Assembly: GCA_017538795.1 (NCBI GenBank) | Contig: JAFYIE010000087.1 | Coordinates: 1-40,759 of the forward strand | Length of the DNA stretch: 40,759 nt | Source of the DNA: Bacteroidales bacterium | GTDB lineage: Bacteria; Bacteroidota; Bacteroidia; Bacteroidales; F082 | Reading direction: 5' to 3' | Shown here: positions 3,627 to 40,759 of the stretch, piece after piece | Position numbering within the stretch: the first letter of the stretch is position 1 | Layout of the letters: every line of letters starts with the position of its first letter | Position numbers and translations under genes: made by a program | Notes under the pieces: generated by a model | What the model was told of the DNA's origin: nothing | Database searches by the model: none | What the model saw: only the letters and a program-made list of their open reading frames with translations

Positions 3627-4928
<1,302 letters not shown>

Positions 4929-11899: not shown

Positions 11900-12796
11900 T
11901 TATATTTCTGTGAATCTTTTAACAATTTTTTCTCTGTAAGTGTTAGAAACCGGCACTGATTCCAGACCTTCCTGGTTGAAGTCGATGTAATAGCCGTCGG
12001 AGTCGTTGCGTATCAGCTTGATATTGTTGGAGTTAACGATATAAGTGCGGTGACAGCGCATGAGCGGAGTGCCTGCGAAAGCGTCTTCAATGGCTTGAAT
12101 TTTGTTGCGTAACACAAACGAGCTGATGCCACCTTTATTATTATAAAACACGTTGATGTAGTTGCCTTCCGCCTTGATGTAGTAGATATTCTCGAGTTTT
12201 ACCGCGAATTTCTGCGCTCCTGTGTAGTCGTGGAAGTTGATGATATCAGGGTTTTCAGTCACCAAACTCTCTGAGCCTGAGGTTTTTACGTTTTTATTGT
12301 TGTTTGCCTCGTTTAGCTTAATCACTCTTCGGGCGATGTTCAAGATTCTGCGGGCGTCGATGAGCGCGAAACTTAAGTCGGTGACGATAAACGGGAAGCC
12401 GAGTGCAATAATCGAGATTAGAATACTCTTTCCAATGATTAGAGCCGGGCTATAAATCGATATTCTCATGATTCTCAATGATATATACGCATGGAATAAG
12501 CCTATGATTAATACTTCAATTGTATTCCATAATATATATTTAGGGAATGTGAAACGTATCAGTCGTTTTGAGGTGTAATACATCATTATTCGACTGAAAA
12601 TGAGGAAGATAGTGGAGAAGATGATGAAAAATGCGGTGTAAATGAACCTCTTTTCATCTTCTACTGAGAACCATGCTGTGTTTGAAAACGGGTAATATAT
12701 GGCCAAAAACGCTATCGCGAAGAGCACCGTGATTGTCACTTGGACCACCAGATTGTTCTTCTCAATAAGGTAATGTGGCAGTTTTTTTCTATTCAT
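11900..12796 (-). CDS. Membrane-bound LytTR-family transcription regulator
   Basis: A 298-residue protein. The N-terminal half holds four predicted membrane helices (about 17-36, 51-72, 88-110, 117-140); there is no receiver domain. After a polar linker, residues 193-298 form a LytTR DNA-binding domain: LENIYYIKAEGNYINVFY, a central LRNKIQAIEDAF, and MRCHRTYIVNSNNIKLIRND. LytTR proteins bind pairs of direct repeats about two helical turns apart. The gene is transcribed away from fabH, and the region between holds an array of such phased repeats, so control of the fatty-acid operon and of itself is a reasonable inference. What the membrane part senses is unknown. Confidence 0.85.
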   Translation of the reverse strand: MNRKKLPHYLIEKNNLVVQVTITVLFAIAFLAIYYPFSNTAWFSVEDEKRFIYTAFFIIFSTIFLIFSRIMMYYTSKRLIRFTFPKYILWNTIEVLIIGLFHAYISLRIMRISIYSPALIIGKSILISIIALGFPFIVTDLSFALIDARRILNIARRVIKLNEANNNKNVKTSGSESLVTENPDIINFHDYTGAQKFAVKLENIYYIKAEGNYINVFYNNKGGISSFVLRNKIQAIEDAFAGTPLMRCHRTYIVNSNNIKLIRNDSDGYYIDFNQEGLESVPVSNTYREKIVKRFTEI

Positions 12797-12847: not shown

Positions 12848-12981
12848 TTCGTCACAAAAAAGTTAAATTTTATCCCAAAATTTTTATTTTCGTCACAAAA
12901 AAGCCGAAATTCGTCACAAAATGGCCAAATTCGTCACAAAAACACCAAATTCGTCACAAAGATGCGAAAATTCGTCACAAA
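12848..12981 (+). repeat. Phased direct-repeat array (TTCGTCACAAA x6) between LytTR gene and fabH
   Basis: Six exact copies of TTCGTCACAAA start at 12848, 12889, 12910, 12930, 12950 and 12971. A degenerate copy (TTATCCCAAAA) at 12870 fills the one gap, so intervals are 22, 19, 21, 20, 20 and 21 bp. Spacer sequences differ, while several copies share AAAT before the core and extra A after it. All copies have the same orientation. The array is flanked on both sides by exactly 25 nt to the -7 elements of the two divergent genes. It is most likely an operator array; LytTR binding is an inference from spacing and neighbourhood. Confidence 0.85.
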
Positions 12982-13056: not shown

Positions 13057-14004
13057 ATGAAGATTTCAGGAACAGGAAGTTCTCTTCCATCAAAAGTGGT
13101 CACAAACCAGATGTTGAGTGAGATTTTGGACACTTCTGATGAATGGATTACAGCCCGCACCGGTATCAAGGAGCGCCGTGTCCTTTCAAAGGAATATGTT
13201 CTGGACCTCGCCGTCGATGCGTCTTTGAAGGCTCTCGAAGACGCCAAGATGGATGTGAAAGACCTTGATTTTATCATTTGCGCCAATGTCGTGAATGAGT
13301 ATGTGACACCGGCTTTGAGCTGCATAGTCAAAGATAAGATCGGTGCTCACTGTCCATGTGTTGACCTCAATGGTGCTTGCGTGGGATTCGTTTATGCTTG
13401 CGACATTGCGGAAGCATATTATAAAATTGGTAAGGTAAAGAACGTGTTGGTGGTCTGTGCTGAGGCACCGGCTCACATGCTCGACTGGCACGATCGTACA
13501 TGTGCCGTGTTGTTTGGAGCAGGAGCTGGAGCGGCAGTGCTGACACCTGGCGACAATATCATCGCCACACGTCTCACAGGCTCGGAAGGTTGGGATCGTC
13601 TCTATGAGATGCACGACCTTCAGTGGTGCCCATACGACGAAAAAGGCAGCACAAACCTCCCTCTCGTGATGCACGGTCAGGATGTGTTCAAATTCGCCAC
13701 ATCGACTTGCGTCAACGATTTGAAGGAAGTGCTTAAAGAAGCAAAAATGTCGGCCGATGAGATTGACACATATTTCATCCATCAGGCTAACTTGAGAATT
13801 ATTAAGTATATTGAACAGATGCTGAGACAGCCAGTCGAGAAGTTTCCGACAAACATCGAGAAATACGGTAACACCTCGTCGGCGAGCCTCCCGATTTTGC
13901 TTGATGAAGTGAAACGTGAAGGCAAACTCAAAGAAGGCGACATGCTCGCTTTCAGCGCTTTCGGCGCAGGTCTCGTATCAGGTGCAATGATTATGAAATG
14001 GTAA
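13057..14004 (+). CDS. fabH: Beta-ketoacyl-ACP synthase III (KAS III)
   Basis: A 315-residue thiolase-fold enzyme that starts fatty-acid synthesis by condensing an acyl-CoA, usually acetyl-CoA, with malonyl-ACP. The full catalytic triad is present: Cys108 in NGACVGF, His242 in IHQANLRI and Asn272 in EKYGNTSSAS, with the family's usual 30-residue His-Asn spacing. The N-terminal motif DEWITARTGIKERR is typical. It is the first gene of an eight-gene operon; fabF follows after 11 nt. Substrate preference (acetyl- or branched starter) cannot be read from the sequence. Confidence 0.95.
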   Translation: MKISGTGSSLPSKVVTNQMLSEILDTSDEWITARTGIKERRVLSKEYVLDLAVDASLKALEDAKMDVKDLDFIICANVVNEYVTPALSCIVKDKIGAHCPCVDLNGACVGFVYACDIAEAYYKIGKVKNVLVVCAEAPAHMLDWHDRTCAVLFGAGAGAAVLTPGDNIIATRLTGSEGWDRLYEMHDLQWCPYDEKGSTNLPLVMHGQDVFKFATSTCVNDLKEVLKEAKMSADEIDTYFIHQANLRIIKYIEQMLRQPVEKFPTNIEKYGNTSSASLPILLDEVKREGKLKEGDMLAFSAFGAGLVSGAMIMKW

Positions 14005-14015
14005 ATTAGAAAACT

Positions 14016-15254
14016 ATGGAAAAAAGAAGAGTAGTAATAACAGGAATGGGAGTTGTCTCTCCTGTAGGAAACGATGTCAACACTTTCCTCGACAGCATTA
14101 TGAACGGAAAATGCGGTATCGATTTCATCACAAAGTTCAACACTGACGACCTTCCTGTGAAGGTGGCAGCCGAAATCAAGGATTTCCAGCCTGAGAAATA
14201 TGGTCTGGAGACACCTTTCGTGCGTCGTAACGACCTTTTCGCTGTCTACGCTATGGCAGCTGCTTGCCAGGCTATGCAGGGCAATGAAGAAGGTTGGGAC
14301 CAGGACCGTTTGGGCGTTTACATCGGCTCAGGTATCGGCGGTTTCGACACTATGATGCGCGAGATGCACAAACTCGAGGCCGAAGGTCCACGTTGGGTCT
14401 CCCCATTGATGATCCCTACCATGATCGCTAACATGGCAGCAGGTAACGTCGCTATCAGATTCAACGCTCACGGCGTATGCTTGCCAGTGGTTACAGCTTG
14501 TGCTACAAGTACTCATGCCATCGGTGAGGCTTACCGCGCCATCAAAGACGGCTATGCTGACGGCATCATCGCCGGTGGTACAGAAGCACCTATTAATAGA
14601 TTGTCTATCGCCGGTTTCGCCAACTGCAAGGCTTTGACAAAGTCGGAAGACCCTAACGCGGCATCACTGCCATTTGACGCACGCCGCGCTGGTTTCGTCA
14701 TCGCTGAAGGCGCAGGTATCGTTCTTCTGGAAGAACTTGAACACGCTAAAAAACGTGGAGCTACAATCTACGCCGAGGTTTGCGGTTATGGCAACACCTG
14801 CGACGGTCACCACGTCACAGCGCCACATCCTGAAGGAACATACGCAGCCAAAGCCATCAAGATGGCTCTCGACGAGGCAGGTTATCAAGAAAAGAAAGAT
14901 CTCCTTTATATTAATGCACACGGCACCGGCACAGCTCTCAACGACTCATCAGAGACAGAGGCTATCAAGAAAGCCATGGGCGAGGAAGAAGCACGCAGAG
15001 CTCTCATCAGCTCAACAAAGTCAATGACCGGACACCTCCTCGGTGCAGCAGGCGCTATCGAAATCATCGCTTCAGCGTTGGCATTGCAGAAAGGCATGGT
15101 TCCTCCGACTATCAACCTCAACGAGGCTGACCCGGCTTGTGACCTCAACTACACACCAAACAAGGCAGTGAAGGCCGACCTGACAATAGCAGTGTCACAG
15201 TCACTCGGCTTCGGCGGACATAACGGCGCTGTGGCTCTCAGACCGATAAAATAA
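14016..15254 (+). CDS. fabF: Beta-ketoacyl-ACP synthase II (KAS II)
   Basis: A 412-residue elongating condensing enzyme that joins acyl-ACP with malonyl-ACP. The Cys-His-His triad is intact: Cys162 (VTACATSTHAIG), His302 (INAHGTGTALND) and His340 (STKSMTGHLLGAAG), nearly the same numbering as E. coli FabF. The C-terminal SLGFGGHNG is present. Codon use shows strong bias. It lies 11 nt after fabH and 21 nt before fabZ. In many Bacteroidetes fabF is next to acpP; here acpP is three genes further on, between the ETF genes. Confidence 0.97.
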   Translation: MEKRRVVITGMGVVSPVGNDVNTFLDSIMNGKCGIDFITKFNTDDLPVKVAAEIKDFQPEKYGLETPFVRRNDLFAVYAMAAACQAMQGNEEGWDQDRLGVYIGSGIGGFDTMMREMHKLEAEGPRWVSPLMIPTMIANMAAGNVAIRFNAHGVCLPVVTACATSTHAIGEAYRAIKDGYADGIIAGGTEAPINRLSIAGFANCKALTKSEDPNAASLPFDARRAGFVIAEGAGIVLLEELEHAKKRGATIYAEVCGYGNTCDGHHVTAPHPEGTYAAKAIKMALDEAGYQEKKDLLYINAHGTGTALNDSSETEAIKKAMGEEEARRALISSTKSMTGHLLGAAGAIEIIASALALQKGMVPPTINLNEADPACDLNYTPNKAVKADLTIAVSQSLGFGGHNGAVALRPIK

Positions 15255-15275
15255 AACATTGAAAATCATATAGTT

Positions 15276-15701
15276 ATGACAAAAGAAGAATTAAAAAACT
15301 ACTTACCTCACCGCGAGCCTATGTTGCTCGTTGACGAGATTGAGGTTGACGACCAGCATGTCGCCCACTCAAAATATCACGTCAAAGGCGATGAGTTCTT
15401 CCTCCAGGGACATTTCCCGGGCAACCCAGTGGTGCCGGGTGTCATCCTCTGTGAGATTATGGCCCAGAGTTGCGCTCTCCTGATGAAGGAAGACCTTCCG
15501 GGAAAACTGACATTCTACACAGGCATCAACAATGTACGCTTCAAAAATCAGGTTCTTCCTGGTGACACAGTCGAAGTGGACGCTGTTTTGACCGCCCATC
15601 GCGCTAATATCTATTTCTGCGACGCTAAGCTCAGCGTTAGAGGAAAACAGTGCGTCAGCGGAAGCCTTTCGTTTGCTCTCGTTCCAAGAACAGAAAAATA
15701 A
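15276..15701 (+). CDS. fabZ: 3-hydroxyacyl-ACP dehydratase
   Basis: A 141-residue hot-dog-fold dehydratase that turns 3-hydroxyacyl-ACP into trans-2-enoyl-ACP. The active-site helix motif GHFPGNPVVPGVILCEIMAQ carries catalytic His46 and Glu60. The N-terminal LPHREPMLLVDEIE is also typical. Length fits FabZ rather than the longer FabA, and no isomerase function is expected. It is followed by etfB after 9 nt, so its product, the enoyl-ACP, would be the substrate of the dehydrogenase encoded further down if that enzyme works in reverse. Confidence 0.95.
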   Translation: MTKEELKNYLPHREPMLLVDEIEVDDQHVAHSKYHVKGDEFFLQGHFPGNPVVPGVILCEIMAQSCALLMKEDLPGKLTFYTGINNVRFKNQVLPGDTVEVDAVLTAHRANIYFCDAKLSVRGKQCVSGSLSFALVPRTEK

Positions 15702-15710
15702 TTTTATATA

Positions 15711-16532
15711 ATGAAGAAAGAATTTCAAATAGTTGTGTTGGCAAAACAGGTGCCTGATACCAAGAACGTTGGTAAGGACGCCATGAATGCCGACGGCACC
15801 ATCAACCGCGCGGCTCTTCCTGCCATCTTCAATCCGGATGACATGAAAGCCCTTGAGATGGCTCTGATGTGCCGTGATAGAATCAAAGCAGAAAACAACA
15901 TCGACGTCAAAGTGACCGTCATCACCATGGGTCCTCCACGCGCTAACGAGATCGTGCGCGAGGCTTTGTACCGTGGAGCCGACAATGGCTTTGTTGTCAG
16001 CGACAAACGTTTTGCAGCATCAGACACTCTTGCTACATCATACGCTTTGTCGATGGCTATCAAGAAGTTAGGTAATTATGACGTAGTCTTCACAGGCCGC
16101 CAGGCTATTGATGGTGACACCGCACAGGTGGGACCACAGACAGCAGAGAAACTGGAAGTGCCACAAATCACTTACGCTGACGAGCTTATCGCTGTGACAC
16201 CTGAGACCATCCGTCTCAAGAGAGTGCTCCAGCATGGTACCGAGGTCGTCGAGGCAAAGCTTCCGGCTCTCGTAACAGTTCACGGCAACGCCAAGGACTG
16301 CCGCTCACGCCACGCTCATCTCGTAATTAAGAAGAAAAACACCGAAATCCCAATGTGGACAGCCGATGACATCAATCCTGATTTTGAAAGACTTGGTGGA
16401 AAAGGTTCTCCAACAAAGGTGAAAAACATCGAGAACGTCGTTCTCGCAAAGAAAGAAAGCATTACAATCAACAGCGATGACGAAGGCATCAAAGGTTTGA
16501 TCGAAGACCTTACATCGTCGCACATTTTCTAA
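15711..16532 (+). CDS. etfB: Electron transfer flavoprotein subunit beta
   Basis: A 273-residue EtfB/FixA-family protein that carries electrons between an acyl-CoA dehydrogenase and other partners as a heterodimer with EtfA. It has AKQVPDTKNV near the start, VITMGPPRANEIVREALYRG, and GRQAIDGDTAQVGP at 129-142. From memory, that last form is the one in ETFs of strict anaerobes working with butyryl- or caffeyl-CoA reductases, while respiratory ETFs have GKQAIDDDCNQTG. Whether it holds FAD (bifurcating) or AMP cannot be settled here. It is 9 nt after fabZ and 27 nt before acpP, separated from etfA by the carrier gene. Confidence 0.93.
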   Translation: MKKEFQIVVLAKQVPDTKNVGKDAMNADGTINRAALPAIFNPDDMKALEMALMCRDRIKAENNIDVKVTVITMGPPRANEIVREALYRGADNGFVVSDKRFAASDTLATSYALSMAIKKLGNYDVVFTGRQAIDGDTAQVGPQTAEKLEVPQITYADELIAVTPETIRLKRVLQHGTEVVEAKLPALVTVHGNAKDCRSRHAHLVIKKKNTEIPMWTADDINPDFERLGGKGSPTKVKNIENVVLAKKESITINSDDEGIKGLIEDLTSSHIF

Positions 16533-16559
16533 TTTATTAACTTTAAAAATCTTAAAATC

Positions 16560-16796
16560 ATGAATACAAAAGAAAAAATCACTGAAATTATCGTCAATAA
16601 ACTTAACTGCGAGCCATCAATGGTTACAGAAGACGCAGGTTTTGTCACAACATTAGGTGCTGACTCACTCGACATCGTTGAGCTTATCATGGACATCGAG
16701 CGTGAGTTTGAGATCACCATTCCGGATAACATGACAGAAAAAATCGTCACAGTGGGCGATGCAATCAAAGTTGTTGAAGAAATCAAGGCAAAATAA
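16560..16796 (+). CDS. acpP: Acyl carrier protein
   Basis: A 78-residue acidic four-helix carrier. Ser36 in GADSLDIVELIMDIE is the 4'-phosphopantetheine attachment site, and the helix II pattern is that of type II fatty-acid ACPs. It shuttles acyl chains between the Fab enzymes. Its stop codon overlaps the start of etfA (TAATG), so a carrier gene sits inside an ETF gene pair. No other ACP is in the window. Its synthase (AcpS) is not encoded here. Confidence 0.96.
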   Translation: MNTKEKITEIIVNKLNCEPSMVTEDAGFVTTLGADSLDIVELIMDIEREFEITIPDNMTEKIVTVGDAIKVVEEIKAK

Positions 16797-17791
16797 TGAA
16801 TAACATTATTGTTTATTGTGAAGTAAAAGACAACGGCAAGATCGCTGATGTGAGCTTGGAACTCTGTTCAAAGGCTCGTCATCTGGCAGATCGTCTCAAC
16901 GTGAATGTTGAGGCCGCTGTCATCGGCAACAATCTCAAAGGTCTTGAGAACGAGCTGTTTACACACGGTGTGAACACTGTGTTCTGCCTTGAAGATTCAC
17001 GTCTGGATTTTTATCAGACGTTGCCTCATTTCAGTGCGATGACCAAGCTCATCGAGCGTGAGAAGCCGTATTCAGTGCTTTTCGGAGCAACTCCTGTCGG
17101 CCGTGACCTCGCTCCAAGAGTAGCGTCATATCTCCGTTGTGGTCTTACAGCAGACTGTACAGCTCTCGACATCGATGAAAACGGCAATTTGATGCAGATC
17201 CGTCCGGCTTTCGGCGGTAACATCATCGCCACCATCATCTGCCCAGACGTCCGTCCGCAGATGGCTACAGTACGTGAAGGCGTTATGAAGGTTGAAGTGT
17301 TTGAAAAACAGAAGAACACATCTGTCGTTAAACTCAACGCCTCTGAATTCTTACAGCCAGCCGATTTCGCAGTGAAAATCATCGAGCGTAAGCTTGAAGA
17401 GAAGAAAATCGACATCAAGGGTGCTCCGATTATCGTTTCTGGTGGTTATGGCATGGGTTCGAAGGACAATTTCAAGCTTTTGCATGAGTTGGCCGACCTT
17501 CTCGGTGGAGAAGTTGGTGCAACACGTGCCGCTGTCGACGCAGGTTTCGCCGAGCCGGAACGCCAGGTTGGACAGACAGGCGTCACAGTGCGTCCGAAAG
17601 TCTATATCGCTTGCGGTATTTCTGGCGCGGTGCAGCACCGTTCAGGTATGGAACAGTCAGCGTTGATTATCTCTATCAACACCGACCCGCATGCCCCGAT
17701 CAACTCTATCGCAGACTACGTCATCACAGGTGATGCCGCAGATGTTGTGTCGAAGATGATAAAATATTGTAAATCAAATAGTAAGAAATAA
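16796..17791 (+). CDS. etfA: Electron transfer flavoprotein subunit alpha
   Basis: A 331-residue EtfA/FixB-family protein. The N-terminal domain covers about 1-190; the C-terminal FAD domain has GATRAAVDAGF (241-251), RQVGQTGVTVRPKVYIACG (257-274), SGAVQHRSGM (276-285) and INTDPHAPINSIADYVITGD (294-313). These are the usual FAD contacts. It partners EtfB encoded two genes upstream. Start and stop codons overlap acpP and the dehydrogenase gene by one base each (TAATG), so translation of the three genes is probably coupled. Confidence 0.94.
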   Translation: MNNIIVYCEVKDNGKIADVSLELCSKARHLADRLNVNVEAAVIGNNLKGLENELFTHGVNTVFCLEDSRLDFYQTLPHFSAMTKLIEREKPYSVLFGATPVGRDLAPRVASYLRCGLTADCTALDIDENGNLMQIRPAFGGNIIATIICPDVRPQMATVREGVMKVEVFEKQKNTSVVKLNASEFLQPADFAVKIIERKLEEKKIDIKGAPIIVSGGYGMGSKDNFKLLHELADLLGGEVGATRAAVDAGFAEPERQVGQTGVTVRPKVYIACGISGAVQHRSGMEQSALIISINTDPHAPINSIADYVITGDAADVVSKMIKYCKSNSKK

Positions 17792-19371
17792 TGAACTTTT
17801 ATCAAGATAATAAAAGCCTCGCTTTCTATCTGAACCATCCGAAGATGGCTGAGATTGTCCGCATGAAGGAGAACGACTTCGCAGACGCTGAGAACGACGA
17901 GCTTGCTCCAAAGAACGTGGAAGACGCTATCGACAACTACGACAAGGTTTTGGACATCGTTGGAGAGCTTTGCGGCGAAGTGCTTGAAGCAAACGCTGAG
18001 GCTGTAGATATTGAAGGTCCTAAAGTTGTTGACAACGCTATCGTTTACGCCAAGGGAACACAGCAGAACCACGAGGCTATGCGTGACGCTGGCCTTTACG
18101 GAATGGCATTGCCACGTAAATACAACGGACTTAACTTCTCATATGTCCCTTACGTGATGGCAGCTGAGATGGTTTCACGTGCTGACGCGGGCTTCGCAAA
18201 CATTTGGGGCTTGCAGGACTGCGCTGAGACAATTTTGAAATTCGCTGACGACGCTATCAAAGACGAATTTTTGCCACGTATTTATAAAGGTGACACATGC
18301 TCAATGGACCTCACAGAGCCTGATGCAGGTTCCGACTTGCAGTCAGTGCAGCTGAAGGCAACTTACGACGAGAAGGCAGGTTGCTGGAGACTCAATGGTG
18401 TGAAGCGTTTCATCACCAATGGTGACGCCGACATCAAGTTAGTGCTCGCACGTTCAGAAGAAGGCAGCACTGACGGTCGTGGCCTTTCACTGTTCGTTTA
18501 CGACAGAAAAGAAAGAGCTGTGACAGTGAGAAGAATTGAGAACAAGATGGGTATCCATGGTTCACCGACAGGCGAGCTTGTGTTTAACAATGCTCCTGCA
18601 AAACTTATCGGCGACCGTAAGATGGGTCTTATCAAATACGTCATGTCGTTGATGAACGGTGCACGTTTAGGCGTTGGCGCTCAGTCGGTTGGACTCGCTG
18701 AGGCAGCAGTTCGCGACGCTGAGGAATACGCAGATCAGCGTGAGCAGTTTGGCAAGAAAATCAAGGAGTTTGTCGCAGTTCAGGACATTCTCGACTTGAT
18801 GCGTGCCAAGACTGACGCAGCTCGCTCATTGCTTTATGAGACAGCACGTTACGTTGAGACAAACAAGAAAGTCGCCGACATGCTTACACCAGTGTTGAAG
18901 ATGTTCGCTAGCGAATGGGCAAACCAGGTCGCATACGACGACATCCAGATTCACGGCGGCTCAGGCTTCATGAAAGAATACAAATGCGAACGTCTGTATC
19001 GTGACGCCCGTATTTTGACCATCTACGAAGGTACATCACAGCTTCAGGTTGTGGCAGCTGCACGTTTCTTAGGCAACGGCGCATATCTCAAGTATATCGA
19101 AGAACTCGACAACTTCGAATATGCTGAAGAACTTCTGCCATTACGCGAGAAACTTCGTGCCATGACAGCCAAGTACAAAGAGGTTTTCGAACTTTCAGGC
19201 AACAAAGAGACACATCACCGTCGTCTCGTCGAGGCAGTAGGATACATCATCATGGGTTATCTGATGCTTCAAGACACCACACGTTGCGCTGATTTCAGAA
19301 AATCATGCGAAGACATTATTAAATTAGGTCAAGGAGAAATTGCAAAATCATACGAATATGTTAAAGAATAG
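17791..19371 (+). CDS. Acyl-CoA dehydrogenase family protein, proposed acyl-ACP/enoyl-ACP oxidoreductase
   Basis: A 526-residue FAD enzyme, about 140 residues longer than short-chain acyl-CoA dehydrogenases, with extra N- and C-terminal helical parts as in the long acyl-CoA dehydrogenases. Core motifs are TEPDAGSDLQSVQLKA, KRFITNGDAD, EQFGKKIKEFVAVQD and QIHGGSGFMKEY; the catalytic base is Glu413 in IYEGTSQLQV, so it should be active. The family interconverts acyl and trans-2-enoyl thioesters with electrons passing through ETF. Its gene overlaps etfA and fabG and sits in a type II fatty-acid operon that lacks an enoyl reductase, so reduction of enoyl-ACP is proposed. An ordinary CoA substrate remains possible. 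Confidence 0.85.
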   Translation: MNFYQDNKSLAFYLNHPKMAEIVRMKENDFADAENDELAPKNVEDAIDNYDKVLDIVGELCGEVLEANAEAVDIEGPKVVDNAIVYAKGTQQNHEAMRDAGLYGMALPRKYNGLNFSYVPYVMAAEMVSRADAGFANIWGLQDCAETILKFADDAIKDEFLPRIYKGDTCSMDLTEPDAGSDLQSVQLKATYDEKAGCWRLNGVKRFITNGDADIKLVLARSEEGSTDGRGLSLFVYDRKERAVTVRRIENKMGIHGSPTGELVFNNAPAKLIGDRKMGLIKYVMSLMNGARLGVGAQSVGLAEAAVRDAEEYADQREQFGKKIKEFVAVQDILDLMRAKTDAARSLLYETARYVETNKKVADMLTPVLKMFASEWANQVAYDDIQIHGGSGFMKEYKCERLYRDARILTIYEGTSQLQVVAAARFLGNGAYLKYIEELDNFEYAEELLPLREKLRAMTAKYKEVFELSGNKETHHRRLVEAVGYIIMGYLMLQDTTRCADFRKSCEDIIKLGQGEIAKSYEYVKE

Positions 19372-20095
19372 AGTAGCAATCGTTACCGGTGCCGCCCGCG
19401 GTATCGGCAAGGCAATCGCAAAACGTTACGCTATGGAAGGCTGCAACATTGCGATTACCGATATCAATGAAGACAATATCAACGCCACTGTCGCTGAACT
19501 CAGTGAACTCGGCACAACAGTGAAGGGTTATGTCTCAAACGCAGCAGATTTCGCTGACGTTGAGAAGACAGTCAATCAGATTGCGGCAGACTTCGGTCGT
19601 ATCGATATCCTTGTGAACAACGCTGGTATCACCAAAGACGGCTTGATGCTTCGTATGACAGAAGCTCAGTGGGATGCTGTTCTCACAGTGAACTTGAAGT
19701 CGGCATTCAACTACATCCATGCTGTGTTGCCAATCATGGCACGTCAGAAGGGTGGAAGCATCATCAACATGGCAAGTGTCGTCGGCGTTAGCGGCAACGC
19801 AGGTCAGGCCAACTATTCAGCTTCAAAGGCTGGTTTGATCGGTCTCGCCAAGTCAATCGCCAAGGAGATGGGTAGCCGTGGCATCCGCGCCAACTGCATT
19901 GCTCCAGGTTTCATTGAGAGCGACATGACACGCGCACTTCCTGAGGAGGTGAGAAAAGACTGGGCAACAAAGATTCCGTTGAGAAGAGGCGGTACACCGG
20001 AAGACGTCGCCAACGTGGCGTTGTTCCTCGCATCAGACCTCTCGAGCTATGTCACCGGACAGGTGATTAACTGCTGTGGCGGTATGCAATGCTAA
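19358..20095 (+). CDS. fabG: 3-oxoacyl-ACP reductase
   Basis: A 245-residue short-chain dehydrogenase that reduces 3-oxoacyl-ACP with NAD(P)H. It has the TGAARGIGKAIA nucleotide loop, NNAGITKDGLMLRM, and the Ser140-Tyr153-Lys157 catalytic set (ASVVG, then NYSASKAG), plus the FabG C-terminus YVTGQVINCCGGM. The ATG at 19358 is chosen; it overlaps the dehydrogenase gene by 14 nt. A TTG at 19340, 4 nt after AAGGAG, would add six residues and is less likely. Last gene of the operon; its end overlaps the convergent anmK by 4 nt. Confidence 0.95.
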   Translation: MLKNRVAIVTGAARGIGKAIAKRYAMEGCNIAITDINEDNINATVAELSELGTTVKGYVSNAADFADVEKTVNQIAADFGRIDILVNNAGITKDGLMLRMTEAQWDAVLTVNLKSAFNYIHAVLPIMARQKGGSIINMASVVGVSGNAGQANYSASKAGLIGLAKSIAKEMGSRGIRANCIAPGFIESDMTRALPEEVRKDWATKIPLRRGGTPEDVANVALFLASDLSSYVTGQVINCCGGMQC

Positions 20096-32523: not shown

Positions 32524-33885
32524 TTATTTATTTTTAACAAAATTTTCAATTTTTTCGTAGCCCCAGATGTTTTCCATGGTCTTCAGCGACTCTTCTACTT
32601 TCTGGGTTTTGTGAGCTTCCATATTACGTTGGATGAAAATGCAGTCGGAGAGCTTGCAGCCGCGGCAGACGATGTCTTCGGCGAGGGCGTCGCATGATGG
32701 GGCGCCGCAGATTCCGCAGTCGATTTGTGGCAGCTGGCGTTCCAGTTCTTTGATTTTATTCATCTTCTCGAGAGCTTTGCTGATGTCAGGGTCGAGGCTG
32801 ATGGAGCGAGGTTCCACTTCGTCGACGCTGACATTTTCGAGCAGATAGCTACGTTCGGCCTCCACCTCGTCGGCGCGTGTCATCTCGCCGCGACGTTCTT
32901 TGCCGGCCACGTAACGCGCACGATTGAACATACGTTCGCAGGTGAGGAAGCGGTTGTTGTAGGTGAGGATGCCGCCCGGGCAGCTCTGGTCGCAGGCACG
33001 CAGCTCGAGGAAGTCGACGTCTTCAATCTCTTCATTCTCAACTTTTTCGAGGAATTCGATGACATTATCCATGCCGTCGATAGAGAGCGAATGCTCGGAG
33101 ACTGACAGACGACGTTCGCCATTGGTCAAGGAGGTGAGGATGCTGTCGGATGTGAGTTGTGCGATAGGCAGTTTCACCTCTTTATAGTCGTGGCCTTGTT
33201 CTTTTATCTTTTTGTAGACGCGGTTGTAGAGCGAGTCCATGTTGATGACGCCGTCGACGCTTGATTTCTCTTCGCCGACAGGGCTTTTCACTGCTGCGAT
33301 CTTAGCCGCGCATGGCGTCACGTAAAACACACCGATTTGATCTTCCGGCCATCCGTCTTTCACCAGTTTGCGTCTGATGTACATGGCGGTGATGTCGAGT
33401 GGTGCCTTGACGGGCATTATGTTCTCCACCAGTCCTGGGAATTTCACCTGAATCAGGCGAACGATGGCGGGGCAGAAGGATGAGATTAGCGGTTTGTTGT
33501 TGCCTTCACGCTCCAGATGGTTCTTTGCCTCGGTGTAGACTGGCACTGTGATTTCGGTCTCGATGACGTGCTGGAAGCCTATCTCGTTGAGGATGGCGTA
33601 GATACGCGACACGCTGATATCGTCTTTAAACTGTCCGAGGAACACGGCGGGGACAAGTGCGACTCTACAAGGATATTTGAAGATCTCTTCAAAGTCGTCT
33701 TGTTTGACAAACACGGCTTTGTGCGGACATGCGATGAAGCAGTTGCCGCAGTCGACGCAGCGGTCTTCGTTGATATGCGCTTTTCCGTCGCGGACGCGGA
33801 TAGCCTCGGTGGGGCAGACTCTCATGCAGTGAGAGCAGCCTTCGCAAACGTTTTCGTTTATCTGGAGAGCGTGAAAAAATGACAT
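32524..33885 (-). CDS. [FeFe]-hydrogenase-like iron-sulfur protein, HydS-like, putative sensor
   Basis: A 453-residue protein. N-terminal 2[4Fe-4S] ferredoxin: CEGCSHCMRVCP (14-25) and CVDCGNCFIACP (43-54). Middle: Fe-hydrogenase large-subunit domain with Cys138 (SSFCPAI), Cys192 and Lys195 (TPCAAKI), Cys298 and Cys302 (RACDQSCPGG). C-terminus: Fe-S domain IDCGICGAPSCDALAEDIVC. The four cluster-binding Cys of the H-cluster [4Fe-4S] are kept, but the Cys that passes protons in catalytic enzymes is Phe137. That, and the neighbouring ATPase/DRTGG genes, fit group C sensory hydrogenases; the PAS domain of known HydS is missing. Hydrogen turnover is doubtful. Confidence 0.78.
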   Translation of the reverse strand: MSFFHALQINENVCEGCSHCMRVCPTEAIRVRDGKAHINEDRCVDCGNCFIACPHKAVFVKQDDFEEIFKYPCRVALVPAVFLGQFKDDISVSRIYAILNEIGFQHVIETEITVPVYTEAKNHLEREGNNKPLISSFCPAIVRLIQVKFPGLVENIMPVKAPLDITAMYIRRKLVKDGWPEDQIGVFYVTPCAAKIAAVKSPVGEEKSSVDGVINMDSLYNRVYKKIKEQGHDYKEVKLPIAQLTSDSILTSLTNGERRLSVSEHSLSIDGMDNVIEFLEKVENEEIEDVDFLELRACDQSCPGGILTYNNRFLTCERMFNRARYVAGKERRGEMTRADEVEAERSYLLENVSVDEVEPRSISLDPDISKALEKMNKIKELERQLPQIDCGICGAPSCDALAEDIVCRGCKLSDCIFIQRNMEAHKTQKVEESLKTMENIWGYEKIENFVKNK

Positions 33886-39473: not shown

Positions 39474-39863
39474 ATGGCAAAAGTAAAATCTTTGGCAGAA
39501 CTGAAGGCCATGAGAGAGAAATTACAGTCGAATCTCGACCTTCGTGAAAAGAGCAACAATCCTGACTCAATGGTTCAGGTGAAAGTCGCTATGGCAACTT
39601 GCGGTATCGCCGCCGGTGCAAAACAGGTCATGGAACACATGATGGAGAAAGCCGACCAGCTTAAACTCAGTGTCGTCTTCACCCAGACAGGCTGCATGGG
39701 CTACTGCCACGCAGAACCTACCATCGAGGTTAAAGTTCCGGGCAAAGACCCGATCGTTTTCGGTCATGTCGACAACAAACGCGCTGACGAAATTCTCGAG
39801 AAGTATGTCATGAACAACGAGCTCGTTGAAGGCATCATCCCGGTGAACTATGAGAAAATCTAA
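39474..39863 (+). CDS. (2Fe-2S) ferredoxin-like HndB-family hydrogenase subunit
   Basis: A 129-residue thioredoxin-fold protein similar to HndB and the small 2Fe-2S protein of trimeric/tetrameric [FeFe]-hydrogenases. A helical N-terminus (AELKAMREKLQSNL) is followed by the ferredoxin-like part with ATCGIAAGAKQVME and QTGCMGYCHAEPTIEV. Only three Cys are visible, so a normal four-Cys [2Fe-2S] site is not obvious. The NuoF-like gene begins 28 nt downstream. It should pass electrons between the flavoprotein and the hydrogenase. A NuoE/HydC homologue is not directly upstream. Confidence 0.85.
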   Translation: MAKVKSLAELKAMREKLQSNLDLREKSNNPDSMVQVKVAMATCGIAAGAKQVMEHMMEKADQLKLSVVFTQTGCMGYCHAEPTIEVKVPGKDPIVFGHVDNKRADEILEKYVMNNELVEGIIPVNYEKI

Positions 39864-39879
39864 TCATTCATTCTAAATT

Positions 39880-39884
39880 GGAGG
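39880..39884 (+). promoter_or_regulatory. Shine-Dalgarno-like GGAGG for the NuoF-like gene
   Basis: GGAGG followed by ACT, 7 nt before the ATG at 39892; together with the site at 2021 it is one of two strong SD sites noticed, with the same spacing. Confidence 0.5.
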
Positions 39885-39891
39885 ACTTTAT

Positions 39892-40759
39892 ATGACAAAA
39901 ATCAAAACGCACGTGCTTTGCTGCGGTGGTACCGGATGTAAGGCATCTGCAAGTGATGAGATCATTGCAACCTTTGAAAAATTATTAAAGGAAAAAGGTT
40001 TGCAAGATGAAGTTCAGGTCATCAGAACAGGCTGCTTCGGCTTCTGCGAGAAGGGCCCTATCGTAAAGATGCTTCCTGACAACACATTCTATACTCAGGT
40101 AAAACCTGAAGATGTCGAGAAAATCATCAACGAGCACATCATCAAAGGTCGTAAGGTCACTGACCTTCTCTACCTCGATCCGGAGAACAAACAGCATGTC
40201 GCCGACTCAAAGCACATGGGTTTCTACAAGAAACAGCTCCGTATAGCTTTGCGTAACTGCGGTTTCATCAACCCAGAAGACATCGACGAATACATCTCAC
40301 GCGGTGGTTATGAAGCTATCGCTAAGGTTCTCGGCGAGATGACACCTCAGCAGGTCATCGACGAGGTCACCAAATCAGGTCTCCGTGGCCGTGGCGGCGC
40401 GGGCTTCCCGACAGGTGTGAAATGGGGTCTCTGCGCAAAGAACCAGGCCGACCAGAAATACGTCATCTGCAACGCTGACGAAGGCGACCCGGGCGCGTTC
40501 ATGGACCGTTCAATCATGGAAGGTGACCCGAACTCAATCATCGAGGCTATGGCTATCTGCGGATACGCTATCGGCGCTACAAAGGGTCTCGTCTACATCC
40601 GTGCTGAATACCCATTGGCAATCCACCGTTTGCAGGTTGCTATCGCTCAGGCTCGTGAATACGGCCTCCTCGGCGACGACATCCTCGGAAGCGGCTTCAA
40701 CTTCGATATCGAGCTTCGCTACGGCGCCGGCGCATTCGTCTGCGGTGAAGAGACAGCTC
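39892..40759 (+). CDS. NuoF/HydB-like NADH-binding flavoprotein (partial, 3' end outside window)
   Basis: The first 289 codons of a NuoF/HydB/HndC-family subunit; no stop before the window ends. An N-terminal thioredoxin-like 2Fe-2S domain has Cys10, Cys11, Cys16 (LCCGGTGCKAS) and RTGCFGFCEKGP. The NADH/FMN domain follows with SGLRGRGGAGFPTGVKW, ICNADEGDPGAFMDR, VYIRAEYPLAI and AGAFVCGEET. It oxidises NADH, or reduces NAD, in electron-bifurcating [FeFe]-hydrogenases or NADP-reducing complexes; with the N-terminal extra domain it is the hydrogenase type rather than complex I NuoF. The catalytic subunit (HydA) is expected just downstream, outside the window. Confidence 0.92.
   Translation, partial: MTKIKTHVLCCGGTGCKASASDEIIATFEKLLKEKGLQDEVQVIRTGCFGFCEKGPIVKMLPDNTFYTQVKPEDVEKIINEHIIKGRKVTDLLYLDPENKQHVADSKHMGFYKKQLRIALRNCGFINPEDIDEYISRGGYEAIAKVLGEMTPQQVIDEVTKSGLRGRGGAGFPTGVKWGLCAKNQADQKYVICNADEGDPGAFMDRSIMEGDPNSIIEAMAICGYAIGATKGLVYIRAEYPLAIHRLQVAIAQAREYGLLGDDILGSGFNFDIELRYGAGAFVCGEETA

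Follow-up and report, generated by a model that had tools for sequence, protein, structure and literature searches.

Enoyl-acyl carrier protein (enoyl-ACP) reduction in bacteria is generally attributed to FabI, FabK or FabV. Within the acyl-CoA dehydrogenase (ACAD) family, the enzymes RedW, PigA and prolyl-ACP dehydrogenase oxidise prolyl groups. An ACAD combined with EtfA and EtfB, the two subunits of an electron-transferring flavoprotein (ETF), makes up the bifurcating butyryl-CoA dehydrogenase complex (Bcd-EtfAB) of Clostridioides difficile (5OL2), caffeyl-CoA reductase (6FAH) and AcrCBA. For 5OL2, the published description reports that Arg136 of EtfA contacts N5 of the bifurcating beta-FAD (PMC5691135). 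Here we analyse a window of 40,759 nucleotides, the whole of contig JAFYIE010000087.1 from a Bacteroidales bacterium (GCA_017538795.1, hereafter G000), where the same three protein families are encoded inside a type II fatty-acid synthesis (FAS) operon. We suggest that this operon is a type II elongation module with a FAS-dedicated EtfBA-ACAD set as proposed enoyl-ACP reductase. Judged from sequence, this is the best reading among those considered, and we regard it as evenly poised between right and wrong.

The G000 genome has 2.48 Mb in 122 contigs, with an estimated completeness of 93.5% and contamination of 6.6%. The named genomes most closely related to it belong to uncultured Bacteroidales, and many carry titles that refer to forestomach or hindgut samples from ruminants and horses' kin alike: yak, buffalo, goat, deer and cattle.

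Organisation and conservation of the operon

At positions 13057-20095, eight genes lie on one strand, with intergenic gaps of 9-27 nt or overlaps between the window open reading frames (ORFs), in the order FabH-FabF-FabZ-EtfB-AcpP-EtfA-ACAD-FabG (Table 1). The original prediction had described an operon with FabH, FabF, FabZ, AcpP and FabG and with EtfB, EtfA and the dehydrogenase among them, and family scans confirmed it. FabH, FabF, FabG, FabZ and AcpP each score above threshold with one or more NCBIfam models carrying their own name, as expected for a type II FAS. FabG likely starts at ATG 19358, within the end of the ACAD gene, while the ORF list has TTG 19340. It is the only canonical FabG recognised in G000, where 3 of 7 genes of the short-chain dehydrogenase/reductase (SDR) family were scanned against NCBIfam.

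Table 1. Features of the window, with the operon genes first
Feature	Coordinates	Strand	Evidence or remark
FabH, beta-ketoacyl-ACP synthase III	13057..14004	+	PRK09352 above cut-off; slightly below TIGR00747 cut-off
FabF, beta-ketoacyl-ACP synthase II	14016..15254	+	TIGR03150 above cut-off
FabZ, 3-hydroxyacyl-ACP dehydratase	15276..15701	+	PRK00006 above cut-off; below TIGR01750 cut-off
EtfB, bifurcating-type (beta-FAD subunit) by sequence	15711..16532	+	family scan
AcpP, acyl carrier protein	16560..16796	+	GADSLD motif; TIGR00517 above cut-off
EtfA, bifurcating-type by sequence	16796..17791	+	family scan; Arg136 aligned with R136 of C. difficile EtfA
ACAD family protein, 526 aa, proposed enoyl-ACP reductase	17791..19371	+	PF02771, PF02770, PF00441, PF12186
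FabG, 3-oxoacyl-ACP reductase	19358..20095	+	TIGR01830 above cut-off
LytTR-domain protein, candidate regulator	11900..12796	-	PF04397, 56 bits; N-terminus membrane-spanning by eye
Six TTCGTCACA repeats, candidate operator	12848..12979	+	spacing 41, 21, 20, 20, 21 nt
FeFe-hydrogenase-like Fe-S protein	32524-33885		PF02906
Weak thioredoxin-like 2Fe-2S match, then NuoF-like protein	39474-40759		NuoF-like protein cut by contig end

Comparison of the dehydrogenase neighbourhoods across Bacteroidales, a check named in the original prediction, revealed ETF and ACAD genes among fab genes in 31 named loci. All eight genes stand in the same order on one strand in 29 of them; of the two exceptions, L078 is cut by the contig end and L111 is without AcpP at that place. 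Conservation of the full gene order in 29 of 31 loci indicates that the operon is not a chance arrangement. The ACADs encoded in these loci are 65-98% identical to that of the window and fall into sublineage A (19 loci, 92-98%) and sublineage B (11 loci, 65-68%), with L111 separate at 67%. The 32 operon ACADs constitute one clade with a Shimodaira-Hasegawa-like approximate likelihood ratio (SH-aLRT) support of 100 in a quick-method tree of 82 long ACADs, from which L085 (the G094 sequence) and four other duplicates had been removed beforehand; the unrelated short ACADs of L116-L118 were excluded from all counts. Given this single clade, formation of the operon looks like one event, followed by retention over a long time.

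Both ETF subunits are closer to bifurcating complexes than to the human protein: EtfB and EtfA score 167 and 287 bits against C. difficile Bcd-EtfAB (5OL2) versus 58 and 147 bits against human ETF, and caffeyl-CoA reductase and other bifurcating EtfABs rank alongside 5OL2. The alignment places an arginine of the operon EtfA exactly at R136 of 5OL2, and the EtfB segment GRQAIDGDTAQVGPQ recurs unchanged in 5OL2 and with one residue changed in 6FAH and 4KPU. The EtfB residues reported as mutated in PMC5691135 could not be surely placed, owing to a mismatch between paper and chain numbering, and that comparison was dropped. The operon EtfAB resembles the beta-FAD, NADH-oxidising, electron-bifurcating type.

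In the ACAD, an extension at the N-terminus is followed by the N, middle and C domains usual for the family, and PF12186 forms the tail. A catalytically complete enzyme with Glu413 had been claimed, and this was borne out, since Glu413 is invariant in a 16-row alignment of relatives and aligns with IYEGT, the catalytic motif of solved ACADs, including butyryl-CoA dehydrogenases. Near residue 360, about 23 residues (28 alignment columns) are missing in 3 lineage-A rows and present in the other 13 of the 16 rows.

We propose a cycle in which FabH and FabF would condense, FabG would reduce and FabZ would dehydrate, giving trans-2-enoyl-ACP, which the ACAD would then reduce in place of FabI, FabK or FabV. 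The FAD of the ACAD would be re-reduced by the alpha-FAD of EtfA, itself fed from NADH through the beta-FAD of EtfB. According to PMC8473912, NADH stands at -320 mV and the enoyl thioester, for crotonyl-CoA, at about -10 mV, so NADH-driven enoyl reduction would be downhill. Because the EtfAB is of bifurcating type, ferredoxin may be reduced concurrently, and the wide potential gap between NADH and the enoyl thioester would then not go to waste. We infer the ACP-bound substrate, the reductive direction and the ferredoxin co-reduction alike. The earlier suggestion that electrons arrive by way of ETF and not straight from NAD(P)H should be qualified: the EtfAB resembles a type in which the flavoprotein is itself the oxidant of NADH and divides the electrons between ferredoxin and the dehydrogenase.

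Searches for known enoyl-ACP reductases

The searches covered the operon genomes, namely G000 and the 31 named ones (n = 32, with completeness stated only for G000, 93.5%, and G094, 99%), and an order set of 197 Bacteroidales genomes, for which the FabI, FabK, FabV and ACAD sets were compiled by hand from search tables. In the model searches FabI was found in 0 of 32 and FabV in 0 of 32 operon genomes, and FabK was not found in 28 of 32, the negatives scoring at most 26.3 bits. Neither G000 nor G094 gave any FabI, FabK or FabV. The same models detect these enzymes elsewhere in the order: of the 197 genomes, we count FabI in 142, FabK in 107 and FabV in 2.

The absence of a known reductase from the operon had already been pointed out, and the genome-wide check gave the same result for G000. 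A FabI hidden among its SDRs was rejected: the family search returned 8 matches in 7 genes, and the best of 5 matches to the FabI model (52.4 bits) is the operon's own FabG. A hidden FabK was also rejected, the best score being 22.9 bits, and PF12241 gave no FabV match. This last model was used instead of PF07055, which matched no control; PF12241 matches G002 and G026, with G002 as the positive. FabL was covered only by the SDR search of G000, in which two SDRs had a generic-level score against the FabL model or were unlisted. Three SDR genes of G000 were scanned against NCBIfam (FabG, the gene on C52 and one on C78), and the others, two on C71 and two more on C78, were seen as ORFs. By eye, the two C71 genes adjoin serine-palmitoyltransferase-like and dioxygenase-like genes. 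At 1264-3349 of L005, a serine-palmitoyltransferase-like gene lies beside an SDR, possibly a 3-ketosphinganine reductase (also by eye), and sphingolipid synthesis is a possible role for this pair.

On the score scale used, Escherichia coli FabI reaches 131 bits with the FabI-type model. The lowest full match counted as FabI has 73.9 bits and the highest match in an operon genome has 52.4 bits; G171 was also taken as having FabI, its copy being truncated at a contig end (62.6 bits). FabK was counted from 248 bits upwards, together with a G107 copy cut by the contig end (203 bits), and matches of the nitronate monooxygenase (NMO) type, at 186 bits or less, were counted as FabK-negative.

No FabI, FabK or FabV was found in 29 of the 197 genomes, 17 with and 12 without a long ACAD. 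All 29, including G000, G094 and G189, have a FabF-type ketosynthase match. A weaker NMO-type match (about E 1e-39 to 1e-47) occurs in 8 of them (G047, G077, G084, G086, G095, G122, G174 and G180), and 21 genomes without a known reductase would remain if those eight proteins were enoyl reductases.

Alternative roles for the EtfBA-ACAD genes

Several results weigh against an enoyl-ACP reductase role for the operon's EtfBA-ACAD. The first group concerns the searches themselves, where FabI and FabK matches all stayed below the curated cut-off of the respective model (0 of 197 for each reached it) and the thresholds were set post hoc on score gaps. No search was made for enoyl reductases of the medium-chain dehydrogenase/reductase (MDR) or old yellow enzyme (OYE) fold, so the negatives cover FabI, FabK and FabV. 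The second group concerns distribution. FabK is present in 4 of the 32 operon genomes, all of lineage B (G214, G215, G219 and G221), and the 32 genomes are kin and represent few independent events. Over the order, having no known reductase is not associated with a long ACAD (17 of 29 versus 89 of 168; Fisher p = 0.69), and a general rule that the one entails the other was rejected. FabI and a long ACAD occur together in 80 of the sampled Bacteroidales genomes, and the ACAD family may therefore do something else. A further case is G189, of the same genus as G000, which has FabH-FabF-FabZ-AcpP-FabG without ETF and ACAD genes beside a LytTR gene (L161, 7938-11671). Its EtfBA-ACAD sits elsewhere, with the ACAD outside the operon clade, and the model searches did not find FabI, FabK or FabV in this genome. 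The third group concerns the protein, whose closest NCBIfam model is AcrC, a CoA reductase (247 bits), while the models of carrier-protein ACADs fit it poorly, with 133 bits for RedW and 130 bits for PigA against cut-offs of 650 and 500. Apart from these three groups, the prolyl-ACP dehydrogenase 4IRN gives 116 bits, below the Bcd-type chains, and the operon set does not qualify as AcrCBA, with 247, 307 and 207 bits for AcrC, AcrA and AcrB against cut-offs of 640, 600 and 475.

In 12 of the 197 genomes (G001, G003, G044, G077, G095, G104, G105, G113, G122, G132, G174 and G180; G104 and G180 are less than 90% complete) we found a FabF homologue and none of FabI, FabK, FabV or a long ACAD, and this too speaks against the proposed role. 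No candidate reductase was recognised by eye in the FabF neighbourhoods of these genomes, 2.6 kb on each side. Since they have FabF and no known reductase or long ACAD, an unrecognised route probably exists in Bacteroidales, with some members reducing enoyl-ACP by an unrecognised enzyme or living on imported fatty acids. The same could hold for the operon genomes: an unrecognised enoyl-ACP reductase would be encoded elsewhere, and the operon EtfBA-ACAD would serve a linked but different reaction. Such an explanation accommodates the 12 genomes, the four FabK-bearing operon genomes and the 80 with FabI and a long ACAD. However, no FabI-, FabK- or FabV-like candidate was recognised in G000, and the ETF and ACAD genes are interleaved with AcpP and FabG. 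We consider it unlikely, though worth serious attention.

Outside the operon, some arrangements link EtfBA-ACAD to fatty-acid synthesis and count in favour of the proposed role. By their coordinates, FabI and the long ACAD share a strand and are no more than 5 kb apart in 10 of the 80 genomes that contain both (G005, G017, G038, G045, G089, G109, G111, G112, G117 and G148). If the genes were placed at random in a 3 Mb genome and the genomes were independent, this proximity would have P = 2e-13; among the ten, two pairs each come from one family. Seven of the ten loci, from several Bacteroidales families, were fetched (L048 and L172-L177), and EtfB, EtfA, ACAD and FabI were confirmed in them, FabI being the next ORF before EtfB in L172 and L177 and lying 0.2-0.35 kb past the ACAD in L173 and L174. 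In L112, from an uncultured bacterium, a FabI-like gene (3797-4705) is located about 2.5 kb upstream of EtfBA-ACAD and is probably the same as a match of 70.5 bits that lies on a contig of the same number.

Six named Bacteroidales have EtfBA-ACAD away from fab genes, and FabI was found in 5 of these; the sixth, G229, gave no FabI, FabK or FabV in the searches. EtfB-EtfA-ACAD without adjoining fab genes and with FabG elsewhere is seen in annotated Bacteroides and Parabacteroides records, while a Prevotella record carries no annotation. Also in favour of the proposed role, EtfB-EtfA-ACAD is convergent with FabF-AcpP-FabG on a Planctomycetota contig (L110), from a genome in which the searches for FabI, FabK and FabV found nothing. 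Two Omnitrophota genomes carry EtfA-ACAD, with EtfB also in L108 and with L109 starting at EtfA. Both have FabF, their ETF and ACAD genes do not adjoin fab genes, and FabI, FabK and FabV were not found in these genomes, whose completeness is not stated.

The loci where FabI and EtfBA-ACAD adjoin, and the genomes with both, would be accounted for if the ACAD oxidised acyl-ACP, like Helicobacter FabX, which has a different fold, to yield 2-enoyl-ACP for unsaturated or 3-hydroxy fatty acids; FabX itself is a precedent (PMC8626469). We find this role improbable, since the operon EtfAB is nearest to the EtfABs of reducing complexes, and an oxidising ACAD would leave no known enoyl reduction in those operon genomes that gave no FabI, FabK or FabV.

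The operon is not the sole FAS set of G000, an idea rejected by a second, canonical acpP-fabF pair on contig C22 (rnc was named there by eye). The operon FabF is one of two FabF-family ketosynthases found in this genome; the second is 44% identical to it, whereas its best match in a plasmid collection, a Collinsella FabF, has 55% identity, which makes the two FabFs of G000 either old paralogues or proteins of separate origin. Another region of G000 (L050, 4108-12814) has genes resembling beta-ketoacyl-ACP synthase III, one resembling an AMP-ligase and one resembling FabD, together with SDRs, by eye, in a glycan-type context. G000 also has a separate set made of a 382-residue Bcd-type ACAD with its own EtfB and EtfA and hbd-, crt- and CoA-transferase-like genes, some of them named by eye. 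As this Bcd-EtfAB stands beside butyrate-type genes, the operon ETF and ACAD are unlikely to be there for butyrate.

That the operon complex acts on CoA esters, turning crotonyl-CoA into butyryl-CoA as a primer for FabH, or using a branched-chain or salvage substrate, has a slim chance in our view: its nearest enzyme families act on CoA, and FabH, which uses CoA primers, is encoded in the operon, but the separate Bcd-type ACAD-EtfAB with its butyrate-type genes argues against it and the missing finds of FabI, FabK and FabV would stay unexplained.

We keep enoyl-ACP reduction by EtfBA-ACAD as the preferred reading. Flavin- and ETF-driven enoyl-ACP reduction, the core of the original prediction, gained from the lack of FabI and FabV finds in all 32 operon genomes and of FabK finds in 28, and lost ground through the four genomes with FabK, through G189 and through the 12 other genomes. 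A wider claim is more doubtful, although we put it forward tentatively: FAS of these gut Bacteroidales would include a further, non-homologous class of enoyl-ACP reductase, a bifurcating EtfBA-ACAD reducing ferredoxin at each elongation step. Many other Bacteroidales may also have a second reductase in the EtfBA-ACAD family, which in a part of them lies beside FabI.

Candidate regulation and comparison with known systems

A divergent LytTR homologue precedes FabH in 30 of the 31 named loci, the remaining one, L078, being cut inside the operon. Between the LytTR gene and the operon of the window stands the TTCGTCACA array, with a period of 20-21 nt. LytTR proteins bind such direct repeats. All 18 of the lineage-A named loci that were examined have 4-7 exact copies of TTCGTCAC (L078, the 19th, is cut), three copies of TTCACCACA are found in L111 and three of TTCGCCACA before the G189 fab operon, while lineage B shows one or two looser copies. 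A promoter and terminator scan gave 18 promoter-like sites versus 7.5 expected and 9 terminator-like sites versus 8.3, and was not used. Elsewhere in the window, the FeFe-hydrogenase-like, 2Fe-2S and NuoF-like genes (Table 1) hint at NADH/ferredoxin metabolism.

Our literature search, over titles and the starts of abstracts and with subscription papers poorly covered, found no description of such an operon among the papers listed. If the proposed role is true, the flavin/ETF replacement would be a new class of enoyl-ACP reductase, it would change the view of how fatty-acid synthesis in anaerobes draws reducing power, and it would fill an apparent pathway gap in the annotation of these genomes. 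If the EtfAB bifurcates, lipid synthesis would be coupled to ferredoxin, conserving energy that FabI-type enzymes lose.

The operon shares FabH, FabF, FabZ, FabG and AcpP with type II FAS systems that use FabI, FabK or FabV, but encodes none of these three reductases. With RedW, PigA and 4IRN it has in common an ACAD family enzyme whose proposed partner is a carrier protein; in contrast, those enzymes oxidise prolyl groups, and the window ACAD scores much lower with RedW and PigA than with AcrC. Helicobacter pylori FabX is likewise a flavoenzyme on acyl-ACP, as proposed for the operon ACAD (PMC8626469). In contrast to the operon ACAD, FabX belongs to the NMO/FabK family, contains an Fe-S cluster and works as a dehydrogenase. 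In mechanism, bifurcating Bcd-EtfAB comes closest: the operon EtfAB is nearest to the Bcd and caffeyl-CoA EtfABs, and the catalytic glutamate and EtfA R136 are kept. In contrast to Bcd-EtfAB, 6FAH and AcrCBA, the operon ACAD is long, with its N-terminal extension and PF12186, its genes are interleaved with AcpP and FabG, and its proposed substrate is ACP-bound.

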